Below, piece after piece: positions 5,966-20,347 of a DNA stretch of 64,000 nt (its first letter is position 1; every line of letters begins with the position of its first letter). The notes under the pieces are model-generated. The model did no database searches. It was not told where the DNA came from and was given only the letters and a program-made list of their open reading frames with translations. The DNA is from Roseithermus sacchariphilus (lineage in GTDB: Bacteria; Bacteroidota; Rhodothermia; Rhodothermales; MEBIC09517). The stretch spans positions 2,084,501 through 2,148,500 of the forward strand of contig CP030158.1 in NCBI GenBank assembly GCA_003285105.1, read 5' to 3'. Both the position numbers and the translations under genes were made by a program.

Positions 5966-6340
5966 GGGGGTCCCTCACGGTAAGGATTGGTTCGTGTGTG
6001 CGGGCGGGGCGGTGCCCGGCCCCCGGCCGGCGACGGTGCGCGGAAGGGCAGGTCGTGAGGCTGACCGTCGAGGCGAAAGAGATCGTGTGGTTGGGGACAC
6101 ACGCACACCCGCGGCGCCTCGGCCGTCGACCTCAGAGACCCGGGCCGGGGGGCATGGTAGCGCTGCCGGGCCCGTTCTGGTTCCGTAACGCCGGGGGGTT
6201 GTCTGAATTCCGTTTCAGCAGACTATAGCCCGATCTCCAGTTTATCTTCGCTGATCGGCCGGGCCGTGCTTCGTATGGCGCAACGTGAGGGGGTATTCCT
6301 GGATCGTCGGGCCTCATCCTCTGGATGATGCCGGGGGCGA
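5966..6340. other. Intergenic region upstream of the pilin-like operon
   Basis: 375 bp between the pilin-like start and the stop of the CPBP gene. It should hold the promoter of the pilin-like operon, but I could not place a convincing -10 or TAnnTTTG element. No further gene or strong hairpin was seen. Confidence 0.4.
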
Positions 6341-13662: not shown

Positions 13663-13739
13663 GCTGGCTGCTGGCTTCGGGCTACTGGCTTCTGGCTGCC
13701 GGCTGATCGCTGCCGGCTGACCGCTGACCGCTGACGGCT
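13663..13739. repeat. Heptamer array B1 (11 units)
   Basis: Eleven contiguous 7-bp units, mostly GCTGGCT, TCTGGCT, GCCGGCT and GACCGCT. It lies in the 638-bp gap 13419-14056, whose first 240 bp contain nothing recognisable. It is followed by a foldable repeat (13757-13862) and array B2. Confidence 0.85.
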
Positions 13740-13756
13740 TCGTGTGCCGCCAGACC

Positions 13757-13862
13757 CTTCCCCCTGGCCGCCCCCGGCGGCCGAGCAGGGGGAAGTCCCC
13801 GAAGGGGGAAGGGGGTCAAAGACCGCCGCGCCGCCGCCATCATCCGGGTCTACCCCTCCGTT
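13757..13862 (+). repeat. Foldable dispersed repeat, copy 1
   Basis: About 106 bp, closely matching the inverse complement of 52642-52742. The two copies share an identical 35-bp block at 13786-13820 and 52683-52717. It contains the inverted pair CTTCCCCCTG / CAGGGGGAAG and a second pairing of GGGGAAG with CTTCCCC-type sequence, so it can fold. Both copies are flanked on each side by heptamer arrays. Confidence 0.8.
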
Positions 13863-13953
13863 GCTGGCTGCTGGCTTCTGGCTGCTGGCTTCTGGCTGCT
13901 GGCTTCTGGCTGCCGGCTGACCGCTGACGGCTGACCGCTGACGGCTGACCGCT
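13863..13953. repeat. Heptamer array B2 (13 units)
   Basis: Thirteen units: alternating GCTGGCT and TCTGGCT, then alternating GACCGCT and GACGGCT. The alternation of two unit types implies growth in 14-bp steps. Confidence 0.85.
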
Positions 13954-14056
13954 GCTCGAATGCGCTCGACTTCTTCCGGTGCTTCCGGCTTGCGCCCGGT
14001 TTCGCCGCGTCCTACTATGGGCGGAGCCGTCCTCCCGTACCCGACCGGTTCGCCGC

Positions 14057-14474: not shown

Positions 14475-15893
<1,419 letters not shown>

Positions 15894-15946
15894 AGGAGGG
15901 TATGTTTGACGAGCGCGGATGCGCCTTGTGGAGTCATGGACTGCGC

Positions 15947-15992
15947 CAAACATACCGCGGTCATCCTGAAGTCAGGCTGAACCGGGACTGAA
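15947..15992 (-). promoter_or_regulatory. Subtilase 1 promoter block: three TTCAG boxes plus TATGTTTG
   Basis: On the minus strand three TTCAG boxes start exactly 11 bp apart (plus-strand CTGAA at 15966, 15977 and 15988), then TATGTTTG at 15947-15954, which fits the Bacteroidota -7 consensus TAnnTTTG. There is no -33 element; the boxes occupy that place. This suggests an activator of the OmpR/PhoB type, whose sites often repeat at 11 bp. The leader to the ATG is about 50 nt. Confidence 0.6.
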
Positions 15993-15998
15993 GGTTGT

Positions 15999-16089
15999 TT
16001 CAGCTTTCAGCGGTCAGCCGTCAGCCGTCAGTCCACAGCCCGCCGCCCATAGCCCGTCGCCGTATCGTGCCACGCCTGACCGCTGACGC
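15999..16089. repeat. Heptamer array C (13 units)
   Basis: Thirteen units. The left half is of TCAGC type (GTCAGCC repeated), the middle has CGCCGCC and CATAGCC, and the right half switches to the complementary sense (CTGACCG, CTGACGC) after a GTATCGTGCCACGC core. It lies just upstream of the subtilase 1 promoter boxes. Confidence 0.85.
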
Positions 16090-16169
16090 CTAAACCGGCG
16101 AGCCCGACCGCCGGGGCAGCCGGGCTCGTGAGGCCGGAACCAGATGGAAGCGATGAAGACATGGGGCGG

Positions 16170-17549
16170 CTATTCGCCCACCCAGAGGCTCCTGCGCGTC
16201 GTGCCGGTCGGAGCGCCCACCACGAACGTCCGGGCACGGCTTTGCAGGGCCTGTAGCACCTCGGCCTGGCTTGCCAGCGGATGGTGTGCCAGGTACAGCG
16301 CCACGGCGCCCGTCACGTGGGCCGCCGCCATCGAGGTGCCGGACATCGTCACCGGCACGCCCACACCGGCCGGCGAGAGCGATACGATGTCCTCGCCCGG
16401 GGCCAGCAGGTCCACGACGGGACCGTAGTTCGAGAAGCGAGAGAACAGGCCGGCGGCATTGTAGGACCCCACCGCGATGACGTCCCCACGTGCCGGCGTC
16501 ACCGTCGAGGCGTCGATGCCCTGGTTGCCGGCCGCCGCGACGAAGATGACGCCGGCCTGCGCGGCCCGGCTGACGGCCTCGTCGAGCGCCGTGTAGACCT
16601 CGGTCCCGACGTCGGCGCCCAGGCTCAGGTTGACGACGATCGGCTTCTGCGGATGGGCCTGCTTGTAGGCCATCACGGCTTCGATGGCGGCAATGACGAC
16701 CGAGGCATCGGCGCAGCCGTCGTCGCCCAGCACCTTCAGGTTGTGGATCGTCACGCCCGGCGCGACCCCTACGATGCCGTCGTTGTCGTCGGCGGCACCG
16801 ATGATGCCGGCGATGTGGGTGCCGTGGCCGTCGTGGTCGACGGGGTCGCCCACGAGGGTCGGGTCGCGGAAGTCGAGGTTGAGGCCCAGGTAGAGGTCAT
16901 CGTTGGGGTCGATGCTGTCGGCGCGGGCGACGCCGGTGTCGAGCAGGACGACGTCGACGCCGGAGACGCGCCCGGTTCCGTCGCCGGAGACGGCCCAGCT
17001 CGTCTGGCCGCCAATGGCCGCCACGCTCCAGGGGATGAGTTGCCCGCTCGTGGTAGCCGCGGCGGCGGCGCGAGGTGTTTTGACGAAGAAGTCCGGCTCG
17101 TACCAGAGCACGTCCGGGTCGTGTTCGAGCATCTGCAGGAAGGCGTAGAAGTCGTTGAGGCCCTGCAGGTCCTCGATGGTGATGGCCACGCCGTTGAAGA
17201 CCTCATCGTACTCATAGCGGCTGATGAGCTTGTAGCGGCTCAGCAATTTGAAGCGCGTCAGCAGGCGTTGCTTGTCGACGGTGACCTTGAAGCCGACGAC
17301 GAGCGAGAGTTGCTCGGTGGTGTTTTCCGTGCGCAGGGCGTTGCCGTCCTTGTCGAAGCCGGTGGTGCGCACCGGGCGCCGGGCCTGCTCCAGCAGGTGC
17401 GGATGACGCAGCTTCCCCTGGCGAACCGCCAGCGGGGCCGTCGTCTCTCCGGGATCGTCGAGGCTGCTGAGCCCATCGGTGCAGCCGGCCAGTCCGACGG
17501 CGAGCACGAGCGCGGTGAGCGCGAGGAGGTGGCGTGTGGTGCGTTTCAT
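16170..17549 (-). CDS. Subtilisin-like (S8) serine protease lipoprotein, paralogue 2
   Basis: 459 residues with a lipoprotein signal ending GLAGC. The propeptide contains diverged copies of the hexamer seen in its paralogues (RFKLLSRYKLISRYEY). The catalytic residues are Asp in VLLDTGV, His in the canonical HGTHIAG, and Ser in SGTSMAAAHV, with Asn in VAAAGNQGID. It is the only one of the three with the standard HGTH motif and a shorter, fully classical catalytic domain. The shared phrase GFDKDGNAL in the propeptide and matching signal peptides show common ancestry. It is transcribed from its own promoter at 17611-17656. It is probably an envelope-anchored protease. Confidence 0.93.
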   Translation of the reverse strand: MKRTTRHLLALTALVLAVGLAGCTDGLSSLDDPGETTAPLAVRQGKLRHPHLLEQARRPVRTTGFDKDGNALRTENTTEQLSLVVGFKVTVDKQRLLTRFKLLSRYKLISRYEYDEVFNGVAITIEDLQGLNDFYAFLQMLEHDPDVLWYEPDFFVKTPRAAAAATTSGQLIPWSVAAIGGQTSWAVSGDGTGRVSGVDVVLLDTGVARADSIDPNDDLYLGLNLDFRDPTLVGDPVDHDGHGTHIAGIIGAADDNDGIVGVAPGVTIHNLKVLGDDGCADASVVIAAIEAVMAYKQAHPQKPIVVNLSLGADVGTEVYTALDEAVSRAAQAGVIFVAAAGNQGIDASTVTPARGDVIAVGSYNAAGLFSRFSNYGPVVDLLAPGEDIVSLSPAGVGVPVTMSGTSMAAAHVTGAVALYLAHHPLASQAEVLQALQSRARTFVVGAPTGTTRRSLWVGE

Positions 17550-17610
17550 AACGGTCGAAGCGGTATGGTTGGACGAGCGCGAGTGCGCCTCGTGGTGTTC
17601 CGGGTTGCGC

Positions 17611-17656
17611 CAAACATACCGCGGTCATCCTGAAGTCAGGCTGAACCGGGACTGAA
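17611..17656 (-). promoter_or_regulatory. Subtilase 2 promoter block: three TTCAG boxes plus TATGTTTG
   Basis: Same arrangement as upstream of subtilase 1: TATGTTTG at 17611-17618 and TTCAG boxes with 11-bp spacing (plus-strand CTGAA at 17630, 17641 and 17652). The sequence between boxes is identical to that of subtilase 1, so this is a recent duplication. Confidence 0.6.
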
Positions 17657-17662
17657 GGTTGT

Positions 17663-17809
17663 TTCAGCATTCAGCTTTCAGCGGTCAGCCGTCAGCCCAT
17701 AGCCCACACAGCCCGCCGCCCTCAGCCCGCCGCCCTCAGCCCGCCGCCCTATCTTGCCACCCCTGACTGCTGACACCTGATCGCTGATCGCTGACCGCTG
17801 ACCGCTGAC
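17663..17809. repeat. Heptamer array D (21 units)
   Basis: Twenty-one contiguous units: TTCAGCA/TTCAGCT/GTCAGCC, CATAGCC, then three alternations of CCCGCCG with CCCTCAG, a CCCTATC-TTGCCAC core, and CGCTGAC-type units of opposite sense. It lies in the 353-bp gap 17550-17902 with the promoter and a terminator. Confidence 0.85.
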
Positions 17810-17820
17810 CCGCTGACGCC

Positions 17821-17861
17821 AAAACACAACCGGGTCCGGCCATTGAGGTGACCGGACCCGG
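17821..17861 (-). terminator. Probable terminator after subtilase 3
   Basis: Perfect 10-bp arms CCGGGTCCGG (17830-17839) and CCGGACCCGG (17852-17861), followed on the minus strand by TTGTGTTTT. It lies 42 bp past the stop of the subtilase 3 gene. The T-run is interrupted, so termination strength is uncertain. Confidence 0.65.
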
Positions 17862-17902
17862 CAGGCGGTGCGTCTGGACCGCTTTCGGAAGCGTCTCCGT
17901 GC

Positions 17903-20068
17903 TTATTTCTTCTTTCCCCGGCTTCCGGAAGGCGAGGTCGTGTCCGTTGAGGCCTCGCTCGACGTGTAGGCCGCGGCGTCGGTCGACGAGGTGCCCCAGA
18001 TCGGCTCGGTCAGCGCCGGGGAGGCCGGGCGGTACTCGATCGACACACGATCCAGCGTGACGTCTCCCGTTGCGGTGATGCTGCCCCGGATCTTGGCCCC
18101 CGGTGTCCAGAATGTGACGTGATTGTCGACGAACAACTGCGCGGCCAGGCTGACGGGGCCGTTGAAGGTGACCTGGCCGCCGGTGTAGAGCGCCAGCGTA
18201 GACGCATCGGTGGCTTCCGTCGTGGCGACGTCATGGTAGAACGTGGCGTGTTTCTCGACCAGCAGGATGCCGTATCCGGAGAAGCTCACGGGGCCGTTCG
18301 TGTAGAGTTGCCCGGAGACGTACCAGATGAGCGGGTTCTCCTTCGTGCCGAGTTCGTAGTGCCCGTTGAGGACCAGGTCGCCCTCGGTGATGCGGGTTGC
18401 CTTGCGGCGCAGGTCGCTCATCGGGAGGGCCGGGACGTCCAGTGCATCTACCTGTTGGAGAGAGGGCAGCTGGGTCGGGTTGTAGCGCGGCTGGAAGGCG
18501 GCGCTTTCCGCGTCCGTCACGCGCATCGTGCGGCTGTAGTAGCCGAAGCCTTCGATGTGCGAGCCTCGACCGTAGAGGTCGATCTTGCCGTTGGCGAAGA
18601 CGCTGGCGTTGCGGCGGCTGCCGGCCGGTGCCGCAGCGGTGACCTGGTCGCCGACCCAGATGGTTCCGCCGCTGGTGACGGCATACTGGAAGAAGGGAGG
18701 CACCGAGACCCCGGCCAGGCCCGTGCCCGTGGCCTCCTGCGAGCCCGAGCCGCTGTTGTCCATCCGGCCGAGGTAGACGGTCCGGTTCGTCGTGCCCGAC
18801 GGTACGCCCAGCACCGTGGCCAGCCCGGAGTGCGTTACGGCGTCATGCACCTGTGCCGGGGAGGCGTGCGGGTTGGCCTGCAGGAACTGCGCCACCGCAC
18901 CCGAGACGTAGGCCGCCGCCATCGACGTGCCGCTCATCACGGCCAGCGCAGGGCGGCCCAGGGCATCGGTCGCCAGCGAGAGGATGTCCACGCCGGGCGC
19001 CAGGATGTCCACCACCGGCCCGTGGTTCGAGAACGCCGCGAACTGATCGTTGGGGTCATAGGCGCCCACGGTGATCACCTCCGGCACGTGCGCCGGCGAG
19101 ATCGTCGCCGCGTCCACCCCGTCGTTCCCCGCCGCGGCAACCACGACCACGCCCGTACCGATGGCGGCTTCCACGGCCAGATCCAGCGCGTTGTAGGCCG
19201 GTGTGCCCAGGTCCAGCCCGAAGCTCAGGTTGGCAACCATCGGACGGTTGGGGTTTGCTTGCTTCTGCCCGACGAGGTATTCCAGGGCGGCCACGACGTC
19301 GGCCACAGTCGAGGTGCCGGATTCGTTGAGCACCTTCAGGCTACGCACCGGCGCGCTCGGCGCTACACCGACGATGCCGTCGCCGTCGTCGATGGCGGCC
19401 ATGAGGCCGGCCAGGTGGTAGCCATGGCCTTCGAGATCGGCCGGGGAGGCCGTCTCGGTGAAGGCGAGCTGTTCGGTAACGTTCAGGTCGTCGGTGTAGG
19501 TGCCGGTGTCCAGCAGGAACAGATCGACGTCCCGGACTTCAGGTGCATCGAGGGCGCCGATGCGCTCGTGGCCCCAGGGCGTACCCTGGGCGTTGCCGGC
19601 CAGGACCTCGAGCAGATATGCCCCGTCGTCGACGCCGGCGTCGGGTTCGATCCAGAGGATGTCGGGGTCGAGTTGCATGGCCTCCAGCACGGAGTCGAGG
19701 CGGGCGCGCTCGACGTCCCCGGCCAGGCCGTCGAAGACCTGCTCGTACTCGTAGCGCCGGAAGAGCTTGTAGCGCCGGAAGAGCTTGTAGGGGTCGATAC
19801 CCTCGGCGGTGCCGATGATGAGGCCGACGGTCGAGTCCGTGGTGGCCTCGGTCTGGAGGGCGTTGCCGTCCTTGTCGAAGCCGGTCGTGGCCGGGGCCGG
19901 ACGCATGGCGCGGTCGAGCAGGTGGGCGTGCCGCAGCTTGCCCTGCTGGCGACTCTGAACCGGCACCGGCGCCTCGTCGACGCCGGTGAGGCCGTCGGCG
20001 CAGCCCGTCAGGCCGACGGCGAGCAGGAGGGCAGCCAGCGCGAGGAAGGGGCGGATGATGCGTTTCAT
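17903..20068 (-). CDS. Subtilisin-like (S8) protease lipoprotein with C-terminal beta-helix-like extension, paralogue 3
   Basis: 721 residues from the ATG at 20068, matching the start and signal peptide of paralogue 1 (MKRIIRPFLALAALLLAVG, lipobox LTGC). The propeptide again has YKLFRR twice. Triad: Asp in FLLDTGT, His in HGYHLAG, Ser in SGTSMAAAYV, with Asn in VAAAGNDGVD. After about residue 455 there is an extra domain of roughly 260 residues absent from the other two. It is made of short beta strands with patterns such as GDLVLNGHYELG and TGGQVTFNGPVSLAAQ, like bactofilin or pilus-tip beta-helix domains, and ends in a Ser/Thr-rich, Lys-terminated tail. The extension may bind a surface polymer or filament. 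Own promoter at 20128-20173. Confidence 0.92.
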   Translation of the reverse strand: MKRIIRPFLALAALLLAVGLTGCADGLTGVDEAPVPVQSRQQGKLRHAHLLDRAMRPAPATTGFDKDGNALQTEATTDSTVGLIIGTAEGIDPYKLFRRYKLFRRYEYEQVFDGLAGDVERARLDSVLEAMQLDPDILWIEPDAGVDDGAYLLEVLAGNAQGTPWGHERIGALDAPEVRDVDLFLLDTGTYTDDLNVTEQLAFTETASPADLEGHGYHLAGLMAAIDDGDGIVGVAPSAPVRSLKVLNESGTSTVADVVAALEYLVGQKQANPNRPMVANLSFGLDLGTPAYNALDLAVEAAIGTGVVVVAAAGNDGVDAATISPAHVPEVITVGAYDPNDQFAAFSNHGPVVDILAPGVDILSLATDALGRPALAVMSGTSMAAAYVSGAVAQFLQANPHASPAQVHDAVTHSGLATVLGVPSGTTNRTVYLGRMDNSGSGSQEATGTGLAGVSVPPFFQYAVTSGGTIWVGDQVTAAAPAGSRRNASVFANGKIDLYGRGSHIEGFGYYSRTMRVTDAESAAFQPRYNPTQLPSLQQVDALDVPALPMSDLRRKATRITEGDLVLNGHYELGTKENPLIWYVSGQLYTNGPVSFSGYGILLVEKHATFYHDVATTEATDASTLALYTGGQVTFNGPVSLAAQLFVDNHVTFWTPGAKIRGSITATGDVTLDRVSIEYRPASPALTEPIWGTSSTDAAAYTSSEASTDTTSPSGSRGKKK

Positions 20069-20127
20069 AGTCGCAGGAGGGTATGTCTGACGAGCGCGGA
20101 TGCGCCCTGTGGAGTCGTGGACTGCGC

Positions 20128-20173
20128 CAAACATACCCTCTCCAGGCTGAAGACAGGCTGAAGGCGGACTGAA
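20128..20173 (-). promoter_or_regulatory. Subtilase 3 promoter block: three TTCAG boxes plus TATGTTTG
   Basis: TATGTTTG at 20128-20135 and TTCAG boxes 11 bp apart (plus-strand CTGAA at 20147, 20158 and 20169). The bases between boxes differ from those of subtilases 1 and 2 while the boxes and spacing are kept, which argues for selection. Confidence 0.65.
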
Positions 20174-20179
20174 AGATGT

Positions 20180-20347
20180 TTCAGCTTCCAGCATTCAGCT
20201 TTCAGCCGTCAGCCCATAGCCCACACAGCCCGCCGCTCACAGCCCGCCGCCCGCCGCTCACAGCCCGCCGCCCGCCGCTCACGGCCAGCAGCTCACAGCC
20301 CGCCGCCCTATCTTGCCACCCCTGACCCCTGACCGCTGACTGCTGAC
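20180..20347. repeat. Heptamer array E (24 units)
   Basis: Exactly 24 units in one unbroken 7-bp phase. The left units are TCAGC-type, the middle alternates CCCGCCG with CTCACAG, then a CCCTATC-TTGCCAC core shared with array D, then CCCTGAC, CGCTGAC and TGCTGAC. It fills most of the 317-bp divergent gap and lies 39 bp before the start of the rightward gene. Confidence 0.9.

Follow-up and report, generated by a model that had tools for sequence, protein, structure and literature searches.

The three paralogous subtilase genes of the 64-kb window, the whole stretch of DNA analyzed here, are each preceded by the same four-box operator, CTGAA-N6-TTCAG-N6-TTCAG-N6-TTCAG-N11-TATGTTTG, which recurs elsewhere in the genome and has the architecture of CopR/CusR-type operators. 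The sequence of the boxes, their spacing, the genome-wide set that they form, and their association with regulator genes are observed directly. Our current working hypothesis, which we consider probable as a whole, is that a regulator of the CopR/CusR subfamily, most likely the protein L042, fills the array, replaces the -33/-35 element, and would activate transcription by a class II mechanism.

Within the window, TTCAG-N6-TTCAG-N6-TTCAG is matched exactly three times, always on the minus strand (15966-15992, 17630-17656, and 20147-20173), and 100 dinucleotide shuffles of the window gave no match. The original prediction of three TTCAG boxes at 11-bp intervals followed by TATGTTTG is exact at all three subtilases; it had overlooked a fourth, inverted box, CTGAA, which lies exactly 11 bp upstream of the three-box array at each of these genes and recurs at each of the genome's seven exact sites. 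Because this distal box is the half-site inverted, the operator can be read as an inverted repeat of 16 bp with two direct half-sites after it. Operators, promoter elements, and genes all lie on the minus strand: operator 1 (15966..16003, pattern search) upstream of subtilase 1 (14475..15890; Peptidase_S8, PF00082, 7.5e-44), whose N terminus, judged by eye, resembles a lipoprotein signal; operator 2 (17630..17667, pattern search) upstream of subtilase 2 (16170..17549; Peptidase_S8, PF00082, 1.4e-42); and operator 3 (20147..20184, pattern search and copy comparison) upstream of subtilase 3 (17903..20068; Peptidase_S8, PF00082, 1.1e-41). In all three, the candidate -7/-10 element TATGTTTG starts 11 bp past the last box (15947..15954, 17611..17618, and 20128..20135). 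Since the 38-mers of operators 1 and 2 are identical, we count them as one recent duplicate and not as independent sites. Between copies 1 and 3, 6 of the 18 spacer bases differ and none of the 20 box bases (P = 0.007 that all six changes fall in spacers), which bears out the earlier description of a third copy with changed spacers and preserved boxes. The 11-bp step is exact in all sites, as expected for OmpR/PhoB-type regulators, with half-sites every ~10 to 11 bp on one face of the helix.

The same region holds other repeats. A second TATGTTTG-like sequence, in the opposite orientation, is found shortly before each subtilase start (15899-15911, 20077-20092, and, imperfectly, ~17565-17580); together with the -7 element it makes up an inverted repeat. 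GCTGACC/GCTGGCT-like 7-bp repeat arrays and GCCCGCCGC repeats occupy intergenic DNA beside several genes (13680-13990, 16000-16090, 17660-17820, and 20180-20340). Subtilases 1 and 3 have a duplicated YKLFRR segment (YKLFRRYKLFRRYEY) in their propeptide regions (15565-15610 and 19745-19790), and a relative (L176) shows a similar repeat in its DNA. At 6203-6218, the CTGAA-N6-TTCAG palindrome stands alone, with neither of the direct boxes after it.

The whole genome (4.8 Mb) contains seven exact three-box matches, and the reversed pattern has none, even with one mismatch. The search for the motif upstream of other genes, proposed at the outset, was rewarded beyond the window with four exact sites, two further TTCAG sites with one or two mismatches (C1:1500002 and C1:1500483), and one TTAAG-rich variant (C1:3701442) beside the copper-type OmpR-family regulator L041. 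What had been described as a feature of three paralogous subtilases is indeed found at all three, as part of a genome-wide set of nine TTCAG sites. The genes behind these nine are the three subtilases, frames of 31, 77, 75, 74, and 104 aa, and a gene for a 372-aa protein; none of the five small proteins matches Pfam at E <= 1, nor does the 372-aa protein. Each with an operator before its gene, the proteins of 77 and 75 aa share 40% identity and are the sole members of their family among 114 genomes. As the original prediction required, the motif lies upstream of genes rather than inside them: nine of the ten own sites are intergenic by gene calls made with a custom codon-usage script instead of a standard gene finder, and the tenth (L029) is overlapped solely by a low-scoring upstream start picked by the caller. 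Among the own sites, TTAAG boxes are confined to L030, where linkage to metal-resistance genes is found; the subtilases and small proteins have no such linkage. The arrangement suggests that the subtilases and several of the small proteins can probably be switched on together. No phosphate genes were seen beside the own sites, and we rejected a phosphate regulon here.

The assignment of TATGTTTG as a Bacteroidota -7 element, already part of the original prediction, is supported by its fixed spacing. TAnnnT stands at offset 11 past the last box in 8 of the 10 own sites and is absent from all other offsets between 0 and 29; TATGTTTG itself also occurs at C1:1500483, independently of the subtilase copies, so that a TAnnTTTG-type -7 element is present in the three window sites and one independent site. 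The flavobacterial sigma-A -7 consensus is given as TAnnTTTG, with a related TAnnTTGY form (PMC9723704). The element is conserved in 36 sites of relatives (A at +12 in 0.89; TT at +15/+16 in 0.92/0.97), and among 43 sites of other phyla, offsets 10 and 11 are the commonest for TAnnnT (16/43), with 11 matches over the remaining 28 offsets; this count drops one far site at a locus edge (L146) and adds two far sites with one TTAAG box, the regulator count below using 42. The boxes would then span about -61 to -24, consistent with the proposal that they take the place of the -33 element. With its CTGAA-N6-TTCAG palindrome, two further TTCAG boxes, N11, and TAnnnT, the operator has the makeup of CopR/CusR operators, a 16-bp inverted repeat and in-phase half-sites before the -10 element.

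Comparisons with other genomes covered one genome per family. In the order, which we take to be Rhodothermales, relaxed CTKAA/TTMAG operators with at most one mismatch occur at 47 places, spread over 13 of 114 genomes, with one match for the reversed control. Exact three-box matches number 51, 37 of them also in the relaxed four-box list; the 14 outside that list compare with 5 reversed-control matches. The contexts examined in relatives include copper islands with CopA multicopper oxidases, copper ATPases, and CusA, which score above NCBIfam cutoffs, and with an adaptor that is only CusB-like. At 10 of 37 order sites (one own and nine in relatives), a CopR/CusR-like regulator gene starts within 250 bp of the operator, and the operator-adjacent OmpR-family regulator genes of the order and of other phyla are divergent from it in 17 of 17 cases. 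Because of this constant divergent arrangement, we assign the binder to the class of CopR/CusR-like OmpR-family regulators. The OmpR/PhoB type proposed by the original prediction is thereby supported as a class; a link to PhoB (phosphate) is not indicated, the nearest group being CopR/CusR.

Relatives' operators mix two boxes, TTAAG (84) and TTCAG (52), and at least one TTAAG box is found in 34 of 36 relatives' sites versus 0 of 8 nonredundant own TTCAG sites (P = 2.5e-7); these statistics cover 36 of the 37 sites that are neither own nor from genome G014, with G099:C90 left out. GC pressure is, in our view, a poor explanation for TTCAG, since a relative of 66 to 67% GC in this DNA (G010) keeps TTAAG in 12 of 16 boxes. 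The TTCAG-only form, searched across the phylum with at most one mismatch, occurs in 2 of 394 genomes, the present one and G014, where the single match sits within a long reading frame. Separately, direct TTTAAGG boxes at 11-bp steps, without an inverted box, are found upstream of the gene for a 966-aa secreted protein in another relative (L070:9063-9122; G022:C213).

Outside the phylum, 257 Gb of sequence yielded 42 exact TTCAG operators in 39 stretches, where by our own estimate from base frequencies less than one is expected. A regulator gene lies within 250 bp in 7 of the 42, always divergent. The neighbors, among 10 downstream proteins scanned, include a CusB-type adaptor, multicopper oxidases, TonB receptors, a PepSY protein, two PBP-like proteins, and one phosphate-type porin. 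Such variety argues that the operator grammar is common to several OmpR-type regulators and, as the same operator adjoins TonB, PepSY, PBP-like, and phosphate-type porin genes, that the boxes alone leave the signal unfixed. The porin and the two PBP-like proteins may reflect a phosphate link in other phyla. Exact TTCAG operators in Betaproteobacteria precede TonB receptor, PepSY, and PBP-like genes (L132, L143, L149, and L151), and such neighborhoods suggest that the betaproteobacterial sites may be a set of their own.

From these features we infer binding, activation, the identity of the regulator, and the signal. The box array would be filled by a phosphorylated response regulator of the OmpR family, from its CopR/CusR (heavy-metal) branch, that would stand in for the -33/-35 element and, as a class II activator, recruit RNA polymerase. 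The direction of activation may be set by the inverted distal half-site, and the switch that would operate at the three subtilases would also serve the five small proteins and the 372-aa protein. Trans_reg_C has 11 matches in the genome, and for both L041 and L042 the best family is the TIGR01387 heavy-metal regulator profile, which they match at 202.5 and 211.4 bits, below the 279.2 cutoff. L042 (C1:2873915-2874616) is an orphan, the closest paralog of L041 (~54% identity), and adjoins another regulator gene; no kinase gene is adjacent to it. The tandem OmpR-type regulator genes L042 and L037 (L088:7913-9444) have no histidine kinase gene beside them. L042 groups with a protein of genome G065 (support 0.85), and its recognition helix, INTTVSS, is elsewhere seen only in that protein; the helix departs from those of copper regulators at positions conserved among them, which could mean a different DNA site for L042. 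The 16 kb around L042 contain no operator site with up to four mismatches, hence no autoregulation site. Beyond this genome, subtilase 1 has its closest counterpart in G065 as well (43% identity), and the region upstream of that counterpart carries TTCAG-N6-TTTAG, a two-box form found in none of the upstream regions examined in 10 other relatives. The shared helix and the two-box sequence are suggestive only as a pointer to L042: G065 (84% complete) contains no four-box site with up to three mismatches, and its two-box sequence is without the other two boxes.

The L041-type regulators of relatives, of which the closest is similar in GC, go with boxes rich in TTAAG; for this reason we favor L042 as the regulator of the TTCAG set, an identification to which we give about even chances. 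Control of all ten sites by the copper-island regulator L041, which would make the subtilases part of the copper response, is less likely yet the strongest competitor. An operator of the same architecture lies 151 bp from L041, in the divergent promoter of the L041 gene itself; one TTCAG site (L028) adjoins a heavy-metal ATPase gene, lying between it and the 75-aa gene; and TTCAG is evidently tolerable to regulators of this type, as their operators in relatives mix both boxes. However, three of the four boxes at L041's own site are TTAAG, while the native sites have no TTAAG box, and the island (60.8% GC versus 68 to 71% around the other sites), together with the 82% identity of L041 to a G010 regulator from another family, suggests later acquisition.

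That the regulator is neither L042 nor L041 seems distinctly unlikely, and a binder from outside the CopR/CusR group, drawn from the remaining Trans_reg_C proteins, a little more so. Regulators of other branches do occur near the same operator in Bryobacterales and Betaproteobacteria, so the box pattern spans subfamilies, but all operator-adjacent regulators in the order belong to the L041 group, and the 3-kb loci inspected around other own regulators contained no operator. A repressor that blocks the promoter is very improbable: 11 bp separate the last box from the -7 element, a distance that would set a bound protein against RNA polymerase, but position and geometry are those of the activators BqsR (PMC4682146), LciR (PMC6989116), and AgrR type II (PMC7380067). 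We give practically no credence to a chance origin of the boxes or to their belonging to the intergenic simple repeats of GCTGACC type. At the window sites, the inverted box is directly bordered by a 7-bp GCTGACC/GCTGAAA array; the six TTCAG sites beyond the window have no array and keep all four boxes (with one or two box mismatches in two of them), and shuffles and reversed controls were empty.

Returning to L042, a broader scenario, which we put forward tentatively and with less than even confidence, is that it diverged from a copper regulator, kept the ancestral four-box architecture, narrowed the boxes to TTCAG, and took over lineage-specific secreted subtilases and small proteins; the grammar of one inverted and three direct half-sites, 10 to 11 bp, and TAnnnT would be a fixed directional module of OmpR-family regulators across phyla. 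The operator and promoter provide an exact, searchable signature for metal-type response regulators in Rhodothermales and beyond, and a predicted nine-site set in one genome, with three exported proteases and several small proteins predicted to switch on jointly. The paralogs L041 and L042, with similar operators of differing box makeup, offer a clean pair for studying how duplicated regulators come to differ in specificity.

Several described elements share the geometry of this operator. The element of the copper-responsive LciRS system of Legionella pneumophila consists of a 16-bp inverted repeat, two shorter conserved sequences, and the -10 element; mutation of the four parts abolished copper induction or nearly so, and its authors suggest that the two short sequences give direction (PMC6989116). 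It resembles the present operator in this order of parts, in its CopR/CusR-type regulator, in the divergent regulator gene, and in the one-way activation proposed, but its half-sites are ATTACAA/TTGTAAT instead of TTCAG and the Legionella genome has one site, versus nine here. The AgrR box of Cupriavidus metallidurans has an inverted repeat of the same 16-bp size (PMC7380067), and the AgrR and CopR/CusR/CzcR palindromes (PMC7380067 and PMC11195947) share extra in-phase direct half-sites and class II activation by a heavy-metal regulator; their half-site is ATKACA/GTAAT and their direct half-sites are variable, whereas here there are always two, at fixed spacing. The BqsR box of Pseudomonas aeruginosa, TTAAG-N6-TTAAG, occurs near the promoter in overlapping arrays that reach five pentamers (PMC4682146); pentamer, 6-bp spacer, and arrays are alike, and relatives of this genome put TTAAG in the same grid, but BqsR boxes are direct repeats of TTAAG, unlike the TTCAG boxes and inverted distal box found here, which do not form a BqsR array. 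The cre/blr-tag TTCACnnnnnnTTCAC of the OmpR-family regulators CreB/BlrA (PMC3660660) is likewise an 11-bp direct repeat of a TTCA-pentamer, but has two boxes, TTCAC-N6-TTCAC, in place of TTCAG. Literature searches with the literal spellings TTCAGN6TTCAG, TTCAG-N6-TTCAG, TTCAGNNNNNNTTCAG, CTGAANNNNNNTTCAG, and two TTAAG spellings returned no paper, notations differing between papers. Because the LciR, AgrR, BqsR, and cre/blr-tag elements share its geometry, we regard the architecture of the operator as already known; by our analysis, the novelty lies in the half-site TTCAG, in the constancy of the four-box form, and in the set of proteases.
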